A stretch of 40,020 bases of DNA from Deltaproteobacteria bacterium. Lineage in GTDB: Bacteria > Desulfobacterota > Desulfuromonadia > Geobacterales > Pseudopelobacteraceae. The stretch spans positions 1-40,020 of the forward strand of contig JAJYBH010000014.1 of NCBI GenBank assembly GCA_021779135.1, in the 5' to 3' direction. The position numbers and the translations under genes are program-made. The notes under the pieces were generated by a model, which saw nothing but the letters and a program-made list of their open reading frames with translations, was not told where the DNA came from and searched no databases. Position 1 is the stretch's first letter. Every line of letters starts with the position of its first letter. Of this stretch, positions 32,513-40,020 are shown piece by piece.

Positions 32513-33049
32513 TTATTCTTCAGGCGGTAAGCGACCGGTTTTGGCGAGGTACACCAATTGCTCATTTTTCTTTGATATGCTTTCCGAACAGTACGACCAG
32601 ATACGATAGCTCTCAACGCCGAGAATAGTAATGCCTGCGGCGGTGACGGCCCAGTAATTGTCGTTCAATGCCTTGGCGAAGTGGTAAAAGAGGAAAAATG
32701 CCGTCAGATAGCCGACATGACAGAAACTGCTGCGATGCTCGATGGCAGCGGTCATTCGCGAAAGACTGAGGATGATGGCGGAAAAAGTGTAGATCAGAAG
32801 CACCATGCTGATGGCCTGTGCGGAAGGGGGCTTGCCCAGAGAGGCAACGAATGATTCCGGCAGTTTTAAAAAAGAAAAATTATTCCAGGCAGCCATGCAG
32901 ACCAGGAGGAAGAGAGACATTGCCCACAGACCCCGGTTTGAAAATCGTCTGAGGCGTGCGATTTCACGCTGGATATCCTGGCTGTAGCTGTCCCGTTTTT
33001 CGGATTCAGAGTGGGGGGCGACAGCAGGTTGTTCGTTTTGTTTCATCAT
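32513..33049 (-). CDS. Four-helix membrane protein at the end of the cytochrome cluster (paralogue of the gene at 39489)
   Basis: The protein has 178 residues from the ATG at 33047-33049 (a second ATG follows directly; a TTG precedes). About 40 charged residues are followed by four hydrophobic helices near 40-58, 80-98, 110-128 and 133-150 and a polar tail with LGVESYRIWSYC. A homologous protein (same NRGLW/RSGLW before helix 1, same LGLQHYNVWNYY after helix 4) lies at the right edge of the window. No quinone- or haem-binding motif can be named. It follows the haem-sensor gene by about 60 bases and its Shine-Dalgarno is weak. Function unknown. Confidence 0.75.
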   Translation of the reverse strand: MMKQNEQPAVAPHSESEKRDSYSQDIQREIARLRRFSNRGLWAMSLFLLVCMAAWNNFSFLKLPESFVASLGKPPSAQAISMVLLIYTFSAIILSLSRMTAAIEHRSSFCHVGYLTAFFLFYHFAKALNDNYWAVTAAGITILGVESYRIWSYCSESISKKNEQLVYLAKTGRLPPEE

Positions 33050-33112
33050 CAAGATGTTTCCCGATGCGTTGCTGTCTGGAGAGTGGATCGAAGGACGTCT
33101 TCAGAAAAAATA

Positions 33113-33949
33113 TCATTCCTTTGGATGGCTGTCTATCGATTCCGTTCTGCTGTGATCGGAGTTCTCGTTTTTGACCAGGAGGTCATGGTAGCAGTGCGCT
33201 ATTCTGTCGAGATCCTGCGGGAGATGGGGTGGTGTGGCCAGCCGGCTGTTGCCGTTTGCGGACCCTTCCACGAATTTTCTCAGCTTCTGCATGGGAAGAA
33301 AAACACTTCTGCGCAGTAACGAGGTTACGCCGCCAATCGTCAGCACCAGGGTCATTACGGTGAAGATTATCATTTGTAGACGGATGGTTGCCAGTGATTT
33401 GATCAGTGAATCCTGAGAAAGTCCGATATCAAGAGTGCCGAGGATTTTCTGGTTTGGTGGGTGGAAGTGGCATGCAGCGTTGGAGCATTCCGGCTCGTTG
33501 TATATGGGGGCCGTAATGGCCAGTACCTCCTTGTTGTCGCTGTTATTGAATTTTCGTGCCTGTTGCATAGTCCCGAGGGTGGTTATGGGGACGGGGCCGC
33601 TGTGACATGAAATGCAGCCTTCCGACTTCTTGTCCAGTTGACGATTGACCTCCCCGGCCTTGGCGGAGATGTTCACGATACCCTTCTTGTTGAAAATCCT
33701 GACATGCTCTACACCCTTTTGTTCGCCGATATTGCGGATAATTGTGGCGAGCATCTCCCGGTCGGATTTGAGCATGGCATAGTGCGTTGACTTCAGGATG
33801 GTGTCGGCCAGGTTGGTGGCTTCCGAGATGGCATAGTCGTTAACGCCGTTTCGAATGGCCGAATAGAGGAGCAGGCAGCAAACTACGACAAAGCCGGTAA
33901 CTGCCAGACCTACCGGAACGAGCGCTCTTCCAGCGAGAGTTTTGAACAT
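33113..33949 (-). CDS. Membrane haem-binding periplasmic sensor with HAMP but no output domain
   Basis: The protein has 278 residues. A membrane helix at 12-31 and another at 192-212 enclose a periplasmic domain of about 160 residues with a CXXCH haem site (C112-C115-H116) and a CX4CH site (C155-C160-H161, in CSNAACHFHPP), as in the haem-containing sensor domains of Geobacter kinases and chemoreceptors. A HAMP-like segment follows (about 213-262), then the protein ends after a short acidic/polar tail: there is no kinase, cyclase or MCP signalling domain. GGGGAG precedes the ATG. It lies downstream of the 12-haem cytochrome gene. It may relay redox state to a partner, or be a truncated kinase. 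Confidence 0.82.
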   Translation of the reverse strand: MFKTLAGRALVPVGLAVTGFVVVCCLLLYSAIRNGVNDYAISEATNLADTILKSTHYAMLKSDREMLATIIRNIGEQKGVEHVRIFNKKGIVNISAKAGEVNRQLDKKSEGCISCHSGPVPITTLGTMQQARKFNNSDNKEVLAITAPIYNEPECSNAACHFHPPNQKILGTLDIGLSQDSLIKSLATIRLQMIIFTVMTLVLTIGGVTSLLRRSVFLPMQKLRKFVEGSANGNSRLATPPHLPQDLDRIAHCYHDLLVKNENSDHSRTESIDSHPKE

Positions 33950-33994
33950 GGCGTCTCCCCTTCGTCATTACCCGAATTCTGCAATCAGTTCCCC

Positions 33995-34063
33995 CTATGC
34001 ATCAAAGACACGGCAGTGTCACAGAAAGTATGCCCCTGCGACCCCCGTGTCTTCGATGCATAG
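33995..34063. repeat. 19-bp inverted repeat between the 12-haem cytochrome and sensor genes
   Basis: The arms 33995-34013 (CTATGCATCAAAGACACGG) and 34045-34063 are complementary at 18 of 19 positions around a 31-nt loop. It begins 9 bases after the stop of the cytochrome gene on the minus strand. There is no T-run. It could stabilise the 3' end of the cytochrome message, terminate partly, or be a mobile-element remnant. Confidence 0.8.
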
Positions 34064-34072
34064 TATCTCGAA

Positions 34073-35062
34073 TTACATCTTGTGGCAGGTATCACATTTG
34101 TCCTTCACGCTGAAGGCGGTTTTCGAGTCGTGGCACGCACCGCACGATTTCCCCTTTTCCATTTCCTGCATCGATACCTTCACCTTGCTACGTGTTGTCT
34201 GGAACTTTGAGACGTGGCAATCGGTGCATGTGTAGAGACCTAAGTGAAACTTATGACTGAATAGTACATTGCCGGCATCCTTGTCTTCGAATACCAGTTC
34301 CCGGGCCGGGTGACACTTTGTGCACTCTTTTATCGGGAACGCTTCTTTGGAATTGTGGCATGCACCGCATGATTTCCCCTTTTCCATATCAGCCATGCTG
34401 ACTCGCTTGTTCTTCTGATTTGGAGAATACAGGCCAGGATGACATTTGCCGCATCCGGCAACTTCAATGTGGAATTTATGACTGAAAAGAGTGGGACCGG
34501 TCTCCTTGACCTTGTACGTTATTTCCCTGACGGGGTGACACGTGACACATTTATCGAGTCCGAAGGCTTTCTTGCCATCATGACAGGCACCACACGATTT
34601 TCCTTTTTCCATGTCGCTCATGCTCCTACGCGGGTTGGAACCTGTTTTAAACAGTGTATTGTGGCATGTGCCGCATTCAGCGTTCTTCTTTAAATGAATT
34701 GTATGTTTAAACAACACGGGGCCAGTTTCCTTTACCTTGAAGGTAACGTCCCTGACCTTGTGGCAGGCTGTGCATTTGGCCAGAGCAAAGGCCTGTCTGC
34801 CGTTGTGGCACTGGCCACATGACTTGCCGCTTTCCATCTGTGCCATGGTGTAATGGACATTCTTACTCATGGCGTCATTATGGCAAGCCTTACAGCTTAT
34901 GTTCGGAGATTTGCTGTTTTTTTTCTTTAGATGAATGGCATGACTGAAAACAACCTTGCCGGCATTTTCAGTCGTAAATGTTACGTCCTTGATATCGAGC
35001 GCCCCCGCGGGGATGGTACAGCACATTATCACAGCTGTGAGAACTATCCAGCGAAGTCTCAT
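34073..35062 (-). CDS. 12-haem periplasmic c-type cytochrome (four c7-type modules)
   Basis: The protein has 329 residues with a signal peptide (about 1-21, ending AGALD). Twelve CXXCH haem sites are visible, arranged as four tandem units of about 75 residues, each with a LFSHKFHL-type histidine motif, then haems spaced as in triheme cytochrome c7, including SCGACH(D/N) in the second position. Similar dodecahaem c7 polymers of Geobacter act as electron-conducting periplasmic wires. AGGAG lies ahead of the ATG. A strong terminator lies between this gene and the upstream NrfD gene, so it is transcribed by readthrough or from its own promoter, which I cannot find. The exact partner is unknown; it is likely to accept electrons from the adjacent menaquinol oxidoreductase. 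Confidence 0.93.
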   Translation of the reverse strand: MRLRWIVLTAVIMCCTIPAGALDIKDVTFTTENAGKVVFSHAIHLKKKNSKSPNISCKACHNDAMSKNVHYTMAQMESGKSCGQCHNGRQAFALAKCTACHKVRDVTFKVKETGPVLFKHTIHLKKNAECGTCHNTLFKTGSNPRRSMSDMEKGKSCGACHDGKKAFGLDKCVTCHPVREITYKVKETGPTLFSHKFHIEVAGCGKCHPGLYSPNQKNKRVSMADMEKGKSCGACHNSKEAFPIKECTKCHPARELVFEDKDAGNVLFSHKFHLGLYTCTDCHVSKFQTTRSKVKVSMQEMEKGKSCGACHDSKTAFSVKDKCDTCHKM

Positions 35063-35102
35063 GATGGTCTCCTGATTGATTTAGAGTGTTGTAGGTGCCC
35101 AG

Positions 35103-35130
35103 AAAAATGGGGGGCTGTAAGGCCCCCCCA
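35103..35130 (-). terminator. Strong terminator after the NrfD-like gene
   Basis: On the minus strand a stem of seven G-C-rich pairs (35108-35115 with 35122-35130) and a short loop is followed by ATTTTTC. It comes 21 bases after the NrfD stop codon and marks the likely end of the six-gene transcript starting near 39000. Confidence 0.9.
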
Positions 35131-35150
35131 AGTATAATTGCACAATGGAG

Positions 35151-36527
35151 TTAGGATGTTATTGTCTCTGCGTTTCTGAAGGCCTTCGCTTCGGTTTTAC
35201 TGGCGAATACCAACGCAGGCTCGGTATCTTTTAGAATCGTTGTTTCAGGTTTGGCGGCATACGCAAGAGCATACTGTTCCTGGGTTTTCCACTGGTAGAA
35301 AATTGGAAGTCTGTAGAGTATAAAGCGATAAACCACGATATAGATGGTGTACACCGTGACGCAAATGGCAACTTCACGCCAGTGCGGGATTTCTCTTTCT
35401 GACAGCTTCCAGTTAAAGGTGATAAGAGCTGTATTAAGCCTGTTCAAGAAAATTCCTAATACAACAAGCAAGGCGCTGAAGCGAATGATCGGCAATTTTT
35501 TATGGTGTATCGCGTACGCAAACAGAGTCATTGGGATGATTACGCCAATCATGATCTCAACCAGGTACCATTGCCCGTATCCGGTGGTCAAATACGCCCA
35601 TTTGTTGTCGTGGGCAATACTCATGAGTTTTATGGTGAGGTAGGTCGCCAGGCCCATGCTGGCGCCTTTGGCCAGTGAAACCGTTACACGGTCCAGGCTG
35701 TCCTTGAAGCGTTGGTCAAAACGCCACGACATTGTCTTGCTGGCAATGGTGCTGACTGTGATCACCATGCAGAGTCCACCGGGGATGGATGATACAAAAA
35801 AGTGTATCCACTGGAATGATGACGAGTACCAGAGAGGGTGAACTTTACCGGGGGCATAGGTGAAGAGCGCACCGAGGGCGCCTTGATGAAGGGTGGAGAG
35901 GATGATCCCGGATACGGTGAGCCCCAGGGTGATTTTCCTGATGGCTCGCACGCCTATCGGGAAACCGATCCATTCGAAAAAGCTGACTGATACCTCGGCT
36001 ATCTGTACCGAAAGGTAGGTGGACACATGCCAGGCTACCAGAAAGAGCACTGCCGCCGGTCCGAATGACACCACCATCGGAAAGGGCAAACGCCAGGGCT
36101 GGCCAAGGTCAATCAGCAGAAAAACGACGGCGAAGAAGTATCCCAGGAGTCCGTTCAGGAGCCCCAGTCGCTCTATCGGTTCCAGGTCATGACGTCCAAA
36201 AACCTCGCAGGCGGTACCGAGCAGAAAGCCGGACGAGGAGAGCGGGACCATGCCGAAGAGGCCGAATGCGAGGAACAACCCCCAAGGGTAATCATTGGAG
36301 CTGTGCGTGACCCATGAGAGTCCGAAAATGAAACGGCCCAGGATGATTGGAATGCCGACTGCGAAAATGATTGCAATAATCCAGTTAAAGGGGTTGCGTA
36401 GGGCCTGTCCAATGTATTGCGGGAGTGTCAGGCCGAGAAAAAGCTTCTCCATGAAGGTCCATTTGCGATCAGAGGATTTCTGGGGAGAATTGACGGTTAT
36501 TGCACCGCTTGCGATCAATTTTTTCAT
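35151..36527 (-). CDS. NrfD/HybB-like integral membrane menaquinol-oxidoreductase subunit
   Basis: The protein has 458 residues with about 9-10 hydrophobic helices, typical of the NrfD/PsrC/HybB family, which bind quinol in the membrane and pass electrons to an FeS partner. The N-terminal 60 residues are cytoplasmic and polar. Helix motifs such as WGLFLAFGLFGMVPLSSSGFLLG and STLHQGALGALF are family-like. The start overlaps the stop of the FeS subunit (ATGA), and GAGGATGG precedes it, so the two subunits should be made together. The arrangement of pentahaem cytochrome, FeS protein and NrfD resembles Cbc4-like complexes of Geobacter, by inference. The C-terminal tail beyond the last helix is about 50 residues. 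Confidence 0.9.
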   Translation of the reverse strand: MKKLIASGAITVNSPQKSSDRKWTFMEKLFLGLTLPQYIGQALRNPFNWIIAIIFAVGIPIILGRFIFGLSWVTHSSNDYPWGLFLAFGLFGMVPLSSSGFLLGTACEVFGRHDLEPIERLGLLNGLLGYFFAVVFLLIDLGQPWRLPFPMVVSFGPAAVLFLVAWHVSTYLSVQIAEVSVSFFEWIGFPIGVRAIRKITLGLTVSGIILSTLHQGALGALFTYAPGKVHPLWYSSSFQWIHFFVSSIPGGLCMVITVSTIASKTMSWRFDQRFKDSLDRVTVSLAKGASMGLATYLTIKLMSIAHDNKWAYLTTGYGQWYLVEIMIGVIIPMTLFAYAIHHKKLPIIRFSALLVVLGIFLNRLNTALITFNWKLSEREIPHWREVAICVTVYTIYIVVYRFILYRLPIFYQWKTQEQYALAYAAKPETTILKDTEPALVFASKTEAKAFRNAETITS

Positions 36528-37441
36528 TTTTTGCCATCCTCCTGCTCAGAATGGTTATGGTGCTCATCTCCGTGGTCTTTGTTGCGTGTGGCGAGGAGGT
36601 GAATCCCGGAAAACAGCGCCGGCCATATTGTGAGAACCATCGGCACCATTCCGAGAAAGTCCTTGACGTTCGAGATAACCGGCTCGTTGCCGAGGGTCGT
36701 GTCAAGTCCGATCTGATCGTCCGGGACCCTGGAGAGGTAGAGCCAGCTGGTTCCTCCCATCTCTTTTTCACCATAAATATGGTCAATATAGCGGTCTGGT
36801 GTTTCCCTGATACGTTCGTGGCCCATCTTGATCAAATCGCTTCGAAGTCCAAATGTAAGCGCTTCCTGGGGACATATCTCAACACAGGCTGGCGGCTTTC
36901 CAAATTTGAGTCTCGTATGATAACAGAAAATACACTTTTTAATGAGCGGATCAAAAGCGCTTGAATAACTGTAAGCCGGGATATTGAAGGGACATGCTAC
37001 CATACAGGTTTTGCATCCTACGCAAACATTACCGTTGTAAATAACCGCGCCTTCCTTGGTTTTAGTGTAGGCATTGACGAAGCACGATGTTAAACAGCCG
37101 GGTTCGTTGCAATGATTGCACTGCATCTTGCGGTAGGGAGGTTTTTGACCATCGTTTGTCTCATAACGATTGACTACCGTGTAGGCCTTTTCCGTAGTTC
37201 TGCGTTTTTCTTCAAAAACGGAGGTGTCGTCGAAAGGGACATCCGGTTCGGGAAGTTTTTGCTCCTTGTTACAGGCTGCCTCGCAGCTTCGGCAGCCGAT
37301 ACAGCGGGTCGTGTCAACCAGTACGCCCATTGCGTCGGGGTATCCTTCGAAGGATCCGACTGCCCAACTCTTGGATGGCGCACCAAGAGAGGCAGCAGCT
37401 CCACCTATCAGGCAGCCTTTCAGGAAATCTCTACGTTTCAT
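36524..37441 (-). CDS. Tat-exported four-[4Fe-4S] ferredoxin subunit with C-terminal membrane anchor (HybA-like)
   Basis: The protein has 305 residues. It begins MKRRDFLKGCLIGGAAAS, a twin-arginine signal, so it is folded with its clusters and exported. Four cysteine sets for [4Fe-4S] clusters are present: CIGCRSCEAAC near 47-57, CNHCNEPGCLTSC near 107, CVGCKTCMVACP near 139, and CIFC with the later CVEIC near 168-188. A hydrophobic segment near 262-282 should anchor it, followed by a His-rich acidic tail (DHGDEHHNHSEQEDGKK). It should pass electrons between the NrfD-like quinol subunit and the pentahaem cytochrome. AAGGAG precedes the ATG. Confidence 0.93.
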   Translation of the reverse strand: MKRRDFLKGCLIGGAAASLGAPSKSWAVGSFEGYPDAMGVLVDTTRCIGCRSCEAACNKEQKLPEPDVPFDDTSVFEEKRRTTEKAYTVVNRYETNDGQKPPYRKMQCNHCNEPGCLTSCFVNAYTKTKEGAVIYNGNVCVGCKTCMVACPFNIPAYSYSSAFDPLIKKCIFCYHTRLKFGKPPACVEICPQEALTFGLRSDLIKMGHERIRETPDRYIDHIYGEKEMGGTSWLYLSRVPDDQIGLDTTLGNEPVISNVKDFLGMVPMVLTIWPALFSGIHLLATRNKDHGDEHHNHSEQEDGKK

Positions 37442-37489
37442 GATATTCTCCTTCGGTTCGAATGTGCATTTAAACGTATATTTAGAAAG

Positions 37490-38014
37490 TCAGTGGCCAT
37501 TGTGTTCACCCTTGGAGGGCTTGTTCTTGGGGGCATATGCACCGGAGTAATAAAAGGCGTCTCCCTCTTTTGTGCGTTGATGGCAATCCTGACATCCCAT
37601 TGGCCCCTTCATATTTTCATGACAGCCAAGGCAGTTGCGGTGCATTGCTGCCTTCAGGCTCGGCTTGTCCTTATGATAAGTTTTAGGATCTTTTTCATGC
37701 ATGGCGGTTGCCGAGAACGAATCAGTCTGGTGACATCCCTTGCAAGATACTTCCTGCGTTTCACTGCTGTTACGGTGACACCTGACACAGTTGGGGTCCT
37801 GCACTAGTGTGCCGGTCGTGTGGTGGTGACAGTTTGAGCATTCCTTCGTCAGCTGGATGTGCTTGGCATGGTTGAACGTAAATGGTTCATACAGTTTGCT
37901 TTGAGTGTTCAAAATAACCGTATCCGGAACGGTTATTCCCCGGCTTGTGTCTGGCACGGCTGCTAGAAACAAAACCACCAATACTCCGGCGAGCCAGATC
38001 CCTTTTGTTTGCAT
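37490..38014 (-). CDS. Pentahaem c-type cytochrome, electron-accepting subunit of the NrfD complex
   Basis: The protein has 174 residues from the ATG at 38012-38014, which has AAGGAG at good spacing; the frame to 38074 adds 20 unlikely residues and is rejected. Residues 1-26 form a signal peptide. Five CXXCH haem sites are visible (CSNCHHH, CVRCHRN, CKGCHQT, CLGCHEN, CQDCHQR), with extra histidines as axial ligands. The tail KPSKGEHNGH is polar. The order cytochrome, FeS, NrfD is that of periplasmic menaquinol oxidoreductases. It is 48 bp from the FeS gene and likely co-transcribed. A lipoprotein cysteine is not seen. Confidence 0.92.
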   Translation of the reverse strand: MQTKGIWLAGVLVVLFLAAVPDTSRGITVPDTVILNTQSKLYEPFTFNHAKHIQLTKECSNCHHHTTGTLVQDPNCVRCHRNSSETQEVSCKGCHQTDSFSATAMHEKDPKTYHKDKPSLKAAMHRNCLGCHENMKGPMGCQDCHQRTKEGDAFYYSGAYAPKNKPSKGEHNGH

Positions 38015-38140
38015 AATACTTTCTCCTTTATATGCTAGTTTTGCTCTAATCGTTCGTATCTCAGGTTGTTCCAATGCGAAATGTGTGTTGAGTGTATGAC
38101 AATTATTTTTCCCGTAAAGGATCGAGCAATGAAACGTGGC

Positions 38141-38314
38141 CTAGTGGCCGGCATCGGAGTTATTGTCCTCTTCCTTTTTGTTTATGTAGCGATAAAACAT
38201 CGGAAACCCTACAAAGAAGCCTATGCAGATCAGGTATTCCATGCTTTTGATGTACGTGTAGTAATCTACTAACGTGAAAACTTCTTTTACTTCGCCTACC
38301 GATGATAGATCCAT
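38141..38314 (-). CDS. 57-residue single-helix membrane protein in the respiratory operon
   Basis: The minus strand has an ATG at 38312-38314 with GGGAGGT eight bases upstream and a TAG at 38141-38143. The product is 57 residues: an acidic amphipathic start (MDLSSVGEVKEVFTLVDYYT), one membrane helix (YLICIGFFVGFPMFYRYI, about 27-44) and a charged tail (NKKEEDNNSDAGH). Small one-helix subunits are common in Hmc/Nrf-like complexes. It sits between two small membrane proteins and the pentahaem cytochrome, in line with them. The plus-strand frame overlapping it has a weaker start and is probably chance. Confidence 0.75.
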   Translation of the reverse strand: MDLSSVGEVKEVFTLVDYYTYIKSMEYLICIGFFVGFPMFYRYINKKEEDNNSDAGH

Positions 38315-38386
38315 GATGAGTTACCTCCCTGTATTCTTGTAAACTTTTAATAAATTATCTGCAATAATTTAGTTTGGATTATTTAG

Positions 38387-38641
38387 CTAGTTGTACTTGA
38401 CGCTTTCAGTTTGTCTTGTTCTGCTGCTTGCGGCGCCTTTGATCATGCCGTAGAGCATTATGATCGCAGGTATGCACTGCATAACCACCACTAGTGCGCA
38501 GAATCCGAGGAAGAGCAGGATCAGTGGGCCACTAATGAAAACCTTGTTGGTTGCGGCCGATGAAGCAAAGGCTGCCGTGCTGGTCGCGAGGCTGAGTGCG
38601 GCTGCGCTGATTACCGTTGTCAGTGTCCGTTTCGCATTCAT
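38387..38641 (-). CDS. Small exported single-TM protein (paralogue of 38670-38918)
   Basis: The gene encodes 84 residues from the ATG at 38639-38641, which has GAGGAG upstream. The first 26 residues look like a signal peptide (MNAKRTLTTVISAAALSLATSTAAFA), followed by one strong membrane helix at about 35-56, then a basic tail. Its helix pattern (LFLGFCALVVVMQCIPAIIMLYG) matches the sister protein 28 bp upstream (FFFAFGILIVLYQFTPGLMLIG), with shared Q and P. I do not recognise the family. Likely a small subunit or assembly factor of the NrfD complex. Confidence 0.75.
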   Translation of the reverse strand: MNAKRTLTTVISAAALSLATSTAAFASSAATNKVFISGPLILLFLGFCALVVVMQCIPAIIMLYGMIKGAASSRTRQTESVKYN

Positions 38642-38669
38642 GGTTGTCTCCTCTTTTATGTGATAACTG

Positions 38670-38918
38670 CTATTGCTGAATTGATGATTTTTTGGTTCCG
38701 GCATCCGAGACCTTCACGTCGATAGATGAAAACATTTCCTTGAGAAGTCTTCCGATCAGCATGAGGCCTGGGGTGAACTGGTACAGGACAATCAATATTC
38801 CAAAGGCGAAGAAGAATAATGTCATGAACCCAAGACGTTCGACTCCCATACCGACTGAGGCCGATGCGTTTGATACGGACAGCAGCATGGACGGTACGAT
38901 TATCGAAAAAGATTTCAT
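38670..38918 (-). CDS. Small exported single-TM protein, first gene of the respiratory operon
   Basis: The gene encodes 82 residues from the ATG at 38916-38918, with GGAGG upstream; a frame start at 38933 is rejected. It has a likely signal peptide (MKSFSIIVPSMLLSVSNASA), a membrane helix at about 34-55 with LYQFTPGLMLIG, and a soluble tail (EMFSSIDVKVSDAGTKKSS). It lies about 75 bases after a sigma-54 promoter. Homologous to the next gene. Function unknown. Confidence 0.75.
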   Translation of the reverse strand: MKSFSIIVPSMLLSVSNASASVGMGVERLGFMTLFFFAFGILIVLYQFTPGLMLIGRLLKEMFSSIDVKVSDAGTKKSSIQQ

Positions 38919-38990
38919 GACATCCTCCGTCACAGAATTAAAGTGTTAAGCCTCTTGGTTATGTACGGTTGGCGTGCTCTTAAACTAATC

Positions 38991-39010
38991 TTTAGCACTG
39001 AGCATGCCAA
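38991..39010 (-). promoter_or_regulatory. Sigma-54 (-24/-12) promoter of the respiratory operon
   Basis: The minus strand reads TTGGCATGCTCAGTGCTAAA. GG (39007-39008) and GC (38995-38996) are 10 bases apart, the fixed spacing of sigma-54 promoters, and the -24 block TTGGCATG is close to the consensus TTGGCACG. The -12 block is GTGCT instead of TTGCW. Transcription would start near 38983, 65 bases before the first ATG, so an enhancer-binding activator should control this operon. Confidence 0.7.
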
Positions 39011-39488
39011 ATTATAATTATGTAAAATTAATGTTATAACGATTTGAAATTGCAAATAAAATTAAATTAATGCTCGATTGTTGCGGTAATTAAGGTCGCT
39101 TTGGGGGGGATTGGAGTATACAGACGGTATACAAGCGCACTACTGCATCGTGAAGACATGGCTTCCATAACATTCCAAATTTGCACATAAAAGCCAGATG
39201 CTAGCTTGGTTTTTATATGCATAGTTTTTCTATACACCTGGCAAGACCTCAAAAAGGCCTTATGTTGTAACTTCAGAGAGTTGCGGGGTATGATACGCAA
39301 AGCGATCTCAAAGCGGAGAAGGGAATTGAACCAGTCGTACGTCTAATCGGTATAGAGAAAGGTGTTTCCTGTTGAGCCGGGTAGTATTCGCTCGAAGAGG
39401 CATATATTCCGGTAAACCTGGCGCCGATGCTTCCAATTGATTGAAGGCGCATGCATGACGATAATTGCACCCGGTAATTAGACTGACT
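39011..39488. other. Gene-free AT-rich region upstream of the sigma-54 promoter
   Basis: About 480 bases without a supportable gene. Short frames here lack ribosome sites and protein-like composition. A twin palindrome GTATAC-AGACG-GTATAC (39116-39132) lies about 120 bases upstream of the sigma-54 promoter, the usual distance for an enhancer-binding site. Nothing else clear is seen. Confidence 0.5.
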
Positions 39489-40019
39489 TTAATCCTGTTT
39501 TTTTGATAACCGGCTGGTATATATATTTATTTTGCTGCATTTGTCTGAACTCGTTTCAATGGCCCGCATGTAGTAATTCCAGACATTGTAGTGTTGAAGC
39601 CCGAGAACAACGAGTCCGGAAATGAACACCATATTGAAGTAATCTCCCAAGGCGGCAGAGATGAAGTACAGCAGGTAAAAGATCACCCGGAAGCACAGGT
39701 GAGTAAATGTATTACCCGGCGCCATCTCATGGTAGATCCTTCCGGCAATGCTAATCAGCGAACTGAGCGTGGATGCACCAAACACGCAATTGATAAGGAT
39801 GACGGAAGGAGTCGAACCGAGTTGCTCCATTATGTCGGACGGCAGTGAACCGGCCAGGCTCTGTTCCTTGAAGAAAAAGGCGAACGCACTGGTGCCCAGG
39901 AATATCAACAAGCCCCATAGACCACTGCGTGAATTGTCATACAGATCATCCAGGGTTGCATCAGCGGATTGATTCAGGTTGCTGCAACCGGTACTCTTTC
40001 CCAAGGAAGTGTGCAGTCG
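39489..40019 (-). CDS. Four-helix membrane protein, paralogue of 32513-33049 (5' end outside window)
   Basis: The frame is open from TAA-type stop at 39489 to the right edge. A TTG at 40004 has no ribosome site, so the gene probably begins beyond the window. The visible 176 residues show four hydrophobic helices near 29-46, 68-90, 103-124 and 125-145 (numbering from the TTG), with NSRSGLWG before helix 1 and LGLQHYNVWNYYMRAI after helix 4. These match the protein at 32513. The two copies flank the cytochrome cluster. The function is unknown. The small charged C-terminal tail ends SKKQD. Confidence 0.7.
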   Translation of the reverse strand, partial: RLHTSLGKSTGCSNLNQSADATLDDLYDNSRSGLWGLLIFLGTSAFAFFFKEQSLAGSLPSDIMEQLGSTPSVILINCVFGASTLSSLISIAGRIYHEMAPGNTFTHLCFRVIFYLLYFISAALGDYFNMVFISGLVVLGLQHYNVWNYYMRAIETSSDKCSKINIYTSRLSKKQD

Positions 40020-40020
40020 T

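Follow-up and report, generated by a model that had tools for sequence, protein, structure and literature searches.

Published passages on the Cbc5 complex (CbcABCDE) of Geobacter list a 7-haem CbcA, a b-type CbcB, a 12-haem CbcC (OmcQ), a two-haem CbcD with a HAMP domain, and a membrane protein, CbcE (PMC7726332, PMC7894505, PMC11434368, PMC10599522); for G. metallireducens, the haem counts in a passage of PMC10989804 are 11 (CbcC) and 1 (CbcD). Cbc3 (CbcVWX) is composed, according to the subunit list in a passage of PMC7894505, of an iron-sulfur (FeS) protein, a membrane or cytochrome b subunit, and a 5-haem cytochrome. The Hmc complex (HmcABCDEF) of Desulfovibrio includes a 16-haem HmcA and a cytochrome b, HmcE. 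Here we describe a minus-strand operon, running from ~39236 to 32513, on contig JAJYBH010000014.1 of a Deltaproteobacteria bacterium (assembly GCA_021779135.1). The stretch analyzed, called the window below, is this entire contig of 40,020 nucleotides (nt), and readable sequence therefore stops at 40020. With a probability of roughly 70%, we interpret the locus as a Cbc5-type operon whose quinol-oxidizing core has been exchanged and which belongs to a regulon governed by a haem kinase and an NtrC-type activator, with the two small membrane proteins at its head, smA and smB, being members of that regulon and not dedicated subunits.

An Hmc-like core in Cbc5-like surroundings

In the order of transcription, the operon codes for smA, smB, a third small protein (smD), a pentahaem cytochrome, an FeS protein, an NrfD-type membrane protein, a 12-haem cytochrome, a two-haem sensory protein, and a CbcE-like membrane protein, after which comes secA (Table 1). 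Inspection of open reading frames (ORFs) and haem motifs recovered every gene reported in the initial annotation, which had omitted the CbcE-like gene and two operator-like palindromes; the sigma-54 promoter that it postulated is real but lies beyond the interval 33113 to 38918 that it covered. Its suggestion that the core resembles Cbc complexes applies to the surroundings, which are like those of Cbc5, and not to the core itself, which is Hmc-like.

The surroundings were compared with those of L186, a locus assigned to Cbc5 by gene order and composition and located in a genome of genus g11 that lacks the present core at an E value of 1e-20. L186 consists of a haem kinase with a divergent NtrC gene, an AB-REC-AB-AB array (AB being the family of smA and smB, and REC a receiver gene), and genes for a 7-haem cytochrome, a cytochrome b561, a 12-haem cytochrome, and CbcD-like and CbcE-like proteins, in agreement with the Cbc5 lists in the passages cited above. 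The 12-haem, CbcD-like, and CbcE-like proteins of the window are, respectively, 55%, 62%, and 51% identical to those of L186, and the two loci share AB genes at the head and a sigma-54 site. Unlike L186, which also has the receiver, haem kinase, and NtrC genes, the window has no receiver gene. The core of 7-haem CbcA and cytochrome b561 CbcB is absent from the window operon, its place being occupied by the pentahaem, FeS, and NrfD-type genes with the addition of smD, and CbcB found no match at an E value of 1e-20 in G000. The predicted gene products show CbcC-, CbcD-, and CbcE-like genes, AB genes, and a sigma-54 promoter flanking an Hmc-like core that replaces CbcB/CbcA. The operon shows that an entire core is exchangeable within an otherwise conserved operon.

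In G. sulfurreducens, a passage of PMC10599522 labels GSU0596 "response receiver" and GSU0597 "hypothetical," and we infer from their positions that they correspond to the receiver and AB genes. GSU0591 and GSU0599, the two transducers listed with two haem motifs in a passage of PMC8396549, also fit by position. The two-haem sensory domain of the kinase (L184:8349-9908) recurs in the CbcD-like subunit: an alignment of 189 residues gives the window protein 34% identity to the sensory part of the L186 haem kinase, and one of 247 residues gives it 30% identity to a kinase on contig C68 of the same genome.

The best NCBIfam matches of three core genes are to Hmc subunits, all under the NCBI cut-offs: the FeS protein scores 410.5 bits against HmcB (NF045715; cut-off, 420), the NrfD-type protein 354.7 bits against HmcC (NF045714; cut-off, 550), and smD 22.4 bits against HmcD (NF045712; cut-off, 34). 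The NrfD-type gene adjoins its partner FeS gene, and its product is also matched by HybB-type and QrcD models. All 19 smD relatives examined match HmcD at E < 0.1, so the 57-residue smD, as an HmcD-like peptide by sequence, is not a new kind of protein. A profile built from smD also recovers a 48-residue peptide encoded between the HmcC-like and HmcE-like genes of another locus (L260), which itself scores 79.6 bits as HmcD. A tblastn search of a plasmid collection with smD gave no match.

The gene at the contig end, dup2, is probably the tail of a CbcBA-type operon interrupted there. In two relatives (L063 and L065), a CbcBA-type cluster with the order AB, REC, AB, 7-haem cytochrome, 227-amino-acid (aa) cytochrome b, dup2 lies directly upstream, and the end of C68 holds the start of such a cluster, including the start of a CbcA-like gene. 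On the basis of this order and of the cluster start on C68, the window operon and the C68 operon are probably neighbors in this genome.

Table 1. Coordinates of the predicted features, all on the minus strand (TM, transmembrane segment; Tat, twin-arginine translocation)
Feature	Position	Strand	Basis
Distal operator-like palindrome TGTATA-N7-TATACA, one mismatch	39218..39236	-	
Proximal operator-like palindrome, one mismatch to TGTATA-N7-TATACA	39115..39133	-	
Sigma-54 promoter site TGGCATGCTCAGTGCT	38994..39009	-	Site score vs random-stretch control
smA, A-type AB family, 82 aa, signal peptide and one TM	38670..38918	-	
smB, B-type AB family small membrane protein, 84 aa	38387..38641	-	
smD, HmcD-like peptide, 57 aa, one hydrophobic segment/TM	38141..38314	-	NCBIfam NF045712
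Pentahaem c-type cytochrome subunit	37490..38017	-	5 CXXCH
HmcB-like FeS subunit, Tat signal, C-terminal hydrophobic tail 262-280	36524..37441	-	NF045715
HmcC-like NrfD-type membrane subunit	35151..36527	-	NF045714, tree
CbcC (OmcQ)-like 12-haem cytochrome	34073..35062	-	12 CXXCH, identity to L186
CbcD-like two-haem sensory protein without kinase domain	33113..33949	-	One CXXCH and one CX4CH
CbcE-like membrane protein, dup1	32513..33046	-	Identity to L186
Second CbcE-like protein, dup2, at contig end	39489..40004	-	26% identical to dup1

The small genes and the AB family

The co-occurrence of the small genes with the NrfD-type core was determined in the best 80 of 173 named loci plus the window (81 loci). 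Geotalea and Citrifermentans are among the genera with the operon. Where at least 2,000 nt lies upstream of the NrfD-type gene (69 loci), smD stands beside the core in every case. In the 60 loci with at least 3,300 nt upstream, smD, the pentahaem cytochrome, and the FeS gene are each present in all 60, AB genes in 55, at least two AB copies in 51, and a receiver-like gene in 51. The AB profile derives from 40 loci of relatives, some of them the same organisms as those counted, and these counts are therefore not fully independent. Two control sets were hand-picked from longer lists. Upstream of 20 CbcB places, AB genes occur in 13, a receiver gene in 11, and smD in none, and among 20 further NrfD places (five in the same score tier and fifteen more distant), 1 has AB and 11 have an HmcD-like stretch; one of these 20, L250, has only ~1 kb upstream.

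BLASTP yields no alignment between smA and smB. They nonetheless belong to one family, as the initial annotation implied in calling them paralogues: comparison of the A-type and B-type profiles with HHalign gives 99.8%, and a B-type profile built without the window rows finds smA at 5e-8. The family has no name in Pfam or NCBIfam: smA matches no family in either database, and smB and the AB profile retrieved nothing credible from NCBIfam, the PDB, or Pfam, with 1 of 25 members touching DUF6773 at 0.0074. PDB searches with smD and NrfD profiles were equally devoid of credible matches. An AlphaFold2 model of smB has a signal helix (residues 3 to 28) and one long helix (38 to 82), with a mean predicted local distance difference test score of 73 and a predicted template modeling score of 0.40. 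Judging from the ratios of nonsynonymous to synonymous substitution rates (dN/dS), all below 1, the three small genes look translated. Purifying selection is clear on smB (0.08 to 0.21 in unsaturated pairs), and smD has values of 0.05 to 0.22 in pairs with unsaturated dS (one of four smD pairs is saturated); selection is loosest on smA (0.41 to 0.42).

AB genes are present in 81 of 97 relatives and in 29 of 297 genomes of a sample of the phylum, with up to 10 copies, and occur at operon heads (including those of CbcBA operons), in pairs, and as single genes away from any core. The receiver protein matches PF00072, and an alignment read by eye suggests that another residue takes the place of its usual phospho-acceptor aspartate. 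In three loci of family f13 (L210, L212, and L215), AB-AB-receiver genes adjoin genes that, by size and a reading of their sequences, resemble those of ATP-binding cassette transporters, and the family is therefore not purely respiratory. A respiratory-only module is ruled out by the copies in other surroundings.

These distributions bear on the main alternative, which was the view of the initial annotation, namely, that the membrane complex includes smA and smB as genuine small subunits, the other copies being spares that join Cbc complexes in trans. Single-helix accessory subunits are frequent in respiratory complexes, AB genes precede most of the cores counted above and accompany both CbcBA and NrfD cores, and 25 aligned members have an invariant Q and an invariant P within the hydrophobic stretch. 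We nevertheless consider this alternative unlikely, with about one chance in four: AB copies with the same kind of promoter stand beside housekeeping genes (ruvC-, lepA-, and glyQS-like, neighbors read by eye), some genomes of the phylum hold AB pairs after transporter-like genes, and 7 of the 20 CbcBA loci have no AB gene. We reject three unknown complex-specific subunits, as originally proposed, since smD is HmcD-like and the AB proteins are not specific to the complex; what stands of that proposal is that the family of smA and smB is unnamed. The three candidates thus resolve into an HmcD-like peptide and a pair of proteins from an unnamed family that, by its upstream sequences, is mostly linked to sigma-54.

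Sigma-54 promoters, a shared palindrome, and CbcL-like genes

Of 58 core loci, 37 have a sigma-54 site scoring at least 21 ahead of their first AB gene, against 2.1% of 1,160 random stretches, and 40 of 58 have one scoring at least 20 (control, 5.1%). The latter score is attained by 23 of 24 AB genes whose 3.5 kb of downstream sequence holds no core gene and by 16 of 16 AB operon heads (control, 3.1% of 1,600 for both). The window promoter has both a GG-N10-GC core and distant activator-like sites. Dyad counting revealed a palindrome, TGTAT-N9-ATACA, shared by 48 of the 107 upstream stretches (shuffle maximum, 4). In its extended form, TGTATA-N7-TATACA, it is found with at most two mismatches in 84 of 112 stretches, all with a sigma-54 score of at least 19: 17 of 21 for orphan AB genes, 15 of 18 for other operons, 51 of 72 for named loci (which include some AB genes not first in their operons), and the window itself (1/1). 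The respective means of 20 shuffles within 20-base blocks are 0.95, 0.60, 1.95, and 0.10. The sites cluster ~100 to 130 and ~200 to 230 nt upstream of the sigma-54 site. Neither the AB family nor this operator was found described in passages of the open-license literature, and the main text of the G. sulfurreducens RpoN regulon study (PMC2725144) contains none of the terms sought.

The relationship of the operator to the regulator was examined in 20 CbcBA-type loci, over the 900 nt preceding whichever AB, receiver, or CbcA gene comes first. Where the NtrC gene is divergent (60 to 69% to a reference), the operator is present in 7 of 12 loci, 6 of 7 with AB and 1 of 5 without it (shuffled expectation, 0.14 and 0.26). 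It is found in 0 of 5 loci with a same-strand NtrC of another type (34 to 39% to the reference; expectation, 0.38) and in 0 of 3 in which no NtrC was seen (0.08). The site therefore accompanies one type of regulator, though not at every such locus. A regulator in this context is named BccR.

The following mechanism can be conceived for the exchanged-core operon. The NrfD subunit would oxidize menaquinol, or run in reverse, and electrons would pass from the FeS protein to the pentahaem cytochrome, the 12-haem CbcC-like protein, and then periplasmic cytochromes, with smD being a small structural subunit beside NrfD by analogy to HmcD in Hmc. The haem-bearing sensor kinase might sense the periplasmic redox state and phosphorylate the NtrC-type activator, which would bind the two palindromes upstream of the sigma-54 site and turn on the operon together with the dispersed AB genes. 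The CbcD-like subunit, with its kinase-related sensory domain, may report the state of the complex, and smA and smB would be small membrane proteins used throughout the regulon.

Several observations weigh against this interpretation. The window has no receiver gene separating smA from smB, its closest relative (L063) showed no smA, and the HmcB, HmcC, and HmcD scores are below threshold. AB is missing from the operon strand in five of the 60 core loci (L136, L143, L144, L163, and L178), two of which (L143 and L144) have an AB gene close by on the opposite strand, and from 7 of the 20 CbcB loci; loci from related species do not count as independent. A sigma-54 score of 20 is attained in no more than 40 of the 58 core loci. 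The operator is absent from 5 of the 12 CbcBA loci with a divergent NtrC, four of them without AB, a receiver, or a sigma-54 site scoring above 19 and the fifth (L240) with AB. In this genome, the kinase and NtrC genes are paired on a separate contig, C68, and the suggested binding of the divergent NtrC to the palindrome reflects co-occurrence.

A scan of this genome for the operator with one mismatch gave five sites (a control pattern gave two). The window promoter has two of them and a lone AB gene has another; a fourth lies elsewhere, and the fifth, an exact match, precedes the gene for a 629-residue protein with nine CXXCH motifs followed by hydrophobic segments, a layout from which we call it CbcL-like. 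Of 57 such genes, the best 30 were scanned: 13 have an exact operator, 16 have one when a single mismatch is allowed (shuffles, 0.0), and 14 have no site; 6 of the 16 are from one genus. For 14 of these 16, the operator lies 41 to 103 nt ahead of the start codon, and for the other two, 272 to 276 nt ahead of it; a weak sigma-54-like candidate (score, 20) is seen ~190 nt before the start in 3 of the 16, the others scoring at most 18. The proximity to the start codon suggests that the operator acts in repression at cbcL-like genes. The loci concerned are L264 (site at 2007-2025), L267, L268, L271, and L278 to L307.

CbcBA is the gateway at low potential, and cbcL works at higher potential (in part in passages of PMC10553843). 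These sites allow a broader and more tentative proposal, to which we give clearly less credence than to the exchanged-core interpretation: a single haem-kinase/NtrC system might operate a redox-potential switch between the gateways of the inner membrane. Through paired operators, it would activate the sigma-54 promoters of the low-potential operons (CbcBA or Hmc-like) and of AB genes dispersed elsewhere, and the operator close upstream of cbcL would turn the CbcL gateway down, the regulator presumably acting there in the opposite sense. The AB proteins would be a new family of membrane factors that tune the gateways after the switch. To our knowledge, how Geobacter-like bacteria select one quinol oxidoreductase over another (CbcL, CbcBA, or others) at falling redox potential is not yet settled. 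The shared operator, the haem-sensor domain repeated in a subunit, and the AB genes at the same promoters would make this gateway choice directly testable.

The core in relation to Cbc3 and Hmc

A very improbable alternative is that the locus is an orthologue of Geobacter Cbc3, whose FeS, cytochrome b, and 5-haem subunits resemble the core in the published list, by which CbcVWX was compared. The best NrfD match in two g11 genomes reaches only 1e-11, and in one of them (G064), its neighbors within ~1.5 kb on each side are uptake hydrogenase-like, with no pentahaem gene. We tentatively reject Cbc3 on these matches and neighbors.

That the operon encodes an ordinary Hmc complex of sulfate reducers, as its HmcB-, HmcC-, and HmcD-like subunits might imply, is the least probable of all and is contradicted by missing subunits: a pentahaem cytochrome with five CXXCH motifs stands for the 16-haem HmcA, no HmcE cytochrome b or HmcF was seen among the ORFs and family hits of 32513 to 40020, the core scores are below the cut-offs, gene order and surroundings differ, and a tree of 33 hand-chosen NrfD-type proteins places the window in a 19-row pentahaem-type clade (support, 100/100; branch, 1.21) separate from loci with a 16-haem neighbor.

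Within that clade, 14 rows group together (98/93) and the other five join a Desulfobulbaceae locus (89/75). The pentahaem-NrfD relatives grouping with that locus (L245 to L248) have no AB genes and encode proteins of 608 to 820 aa beside the core. Near the HmcC-like genes of four other loci (L252, L253, L257, and L262), the HmcD-like stretch forms the N terminus of larger proteins; the remainder of the L252 protein matches GcvH, and the other three were judged alike by eye.

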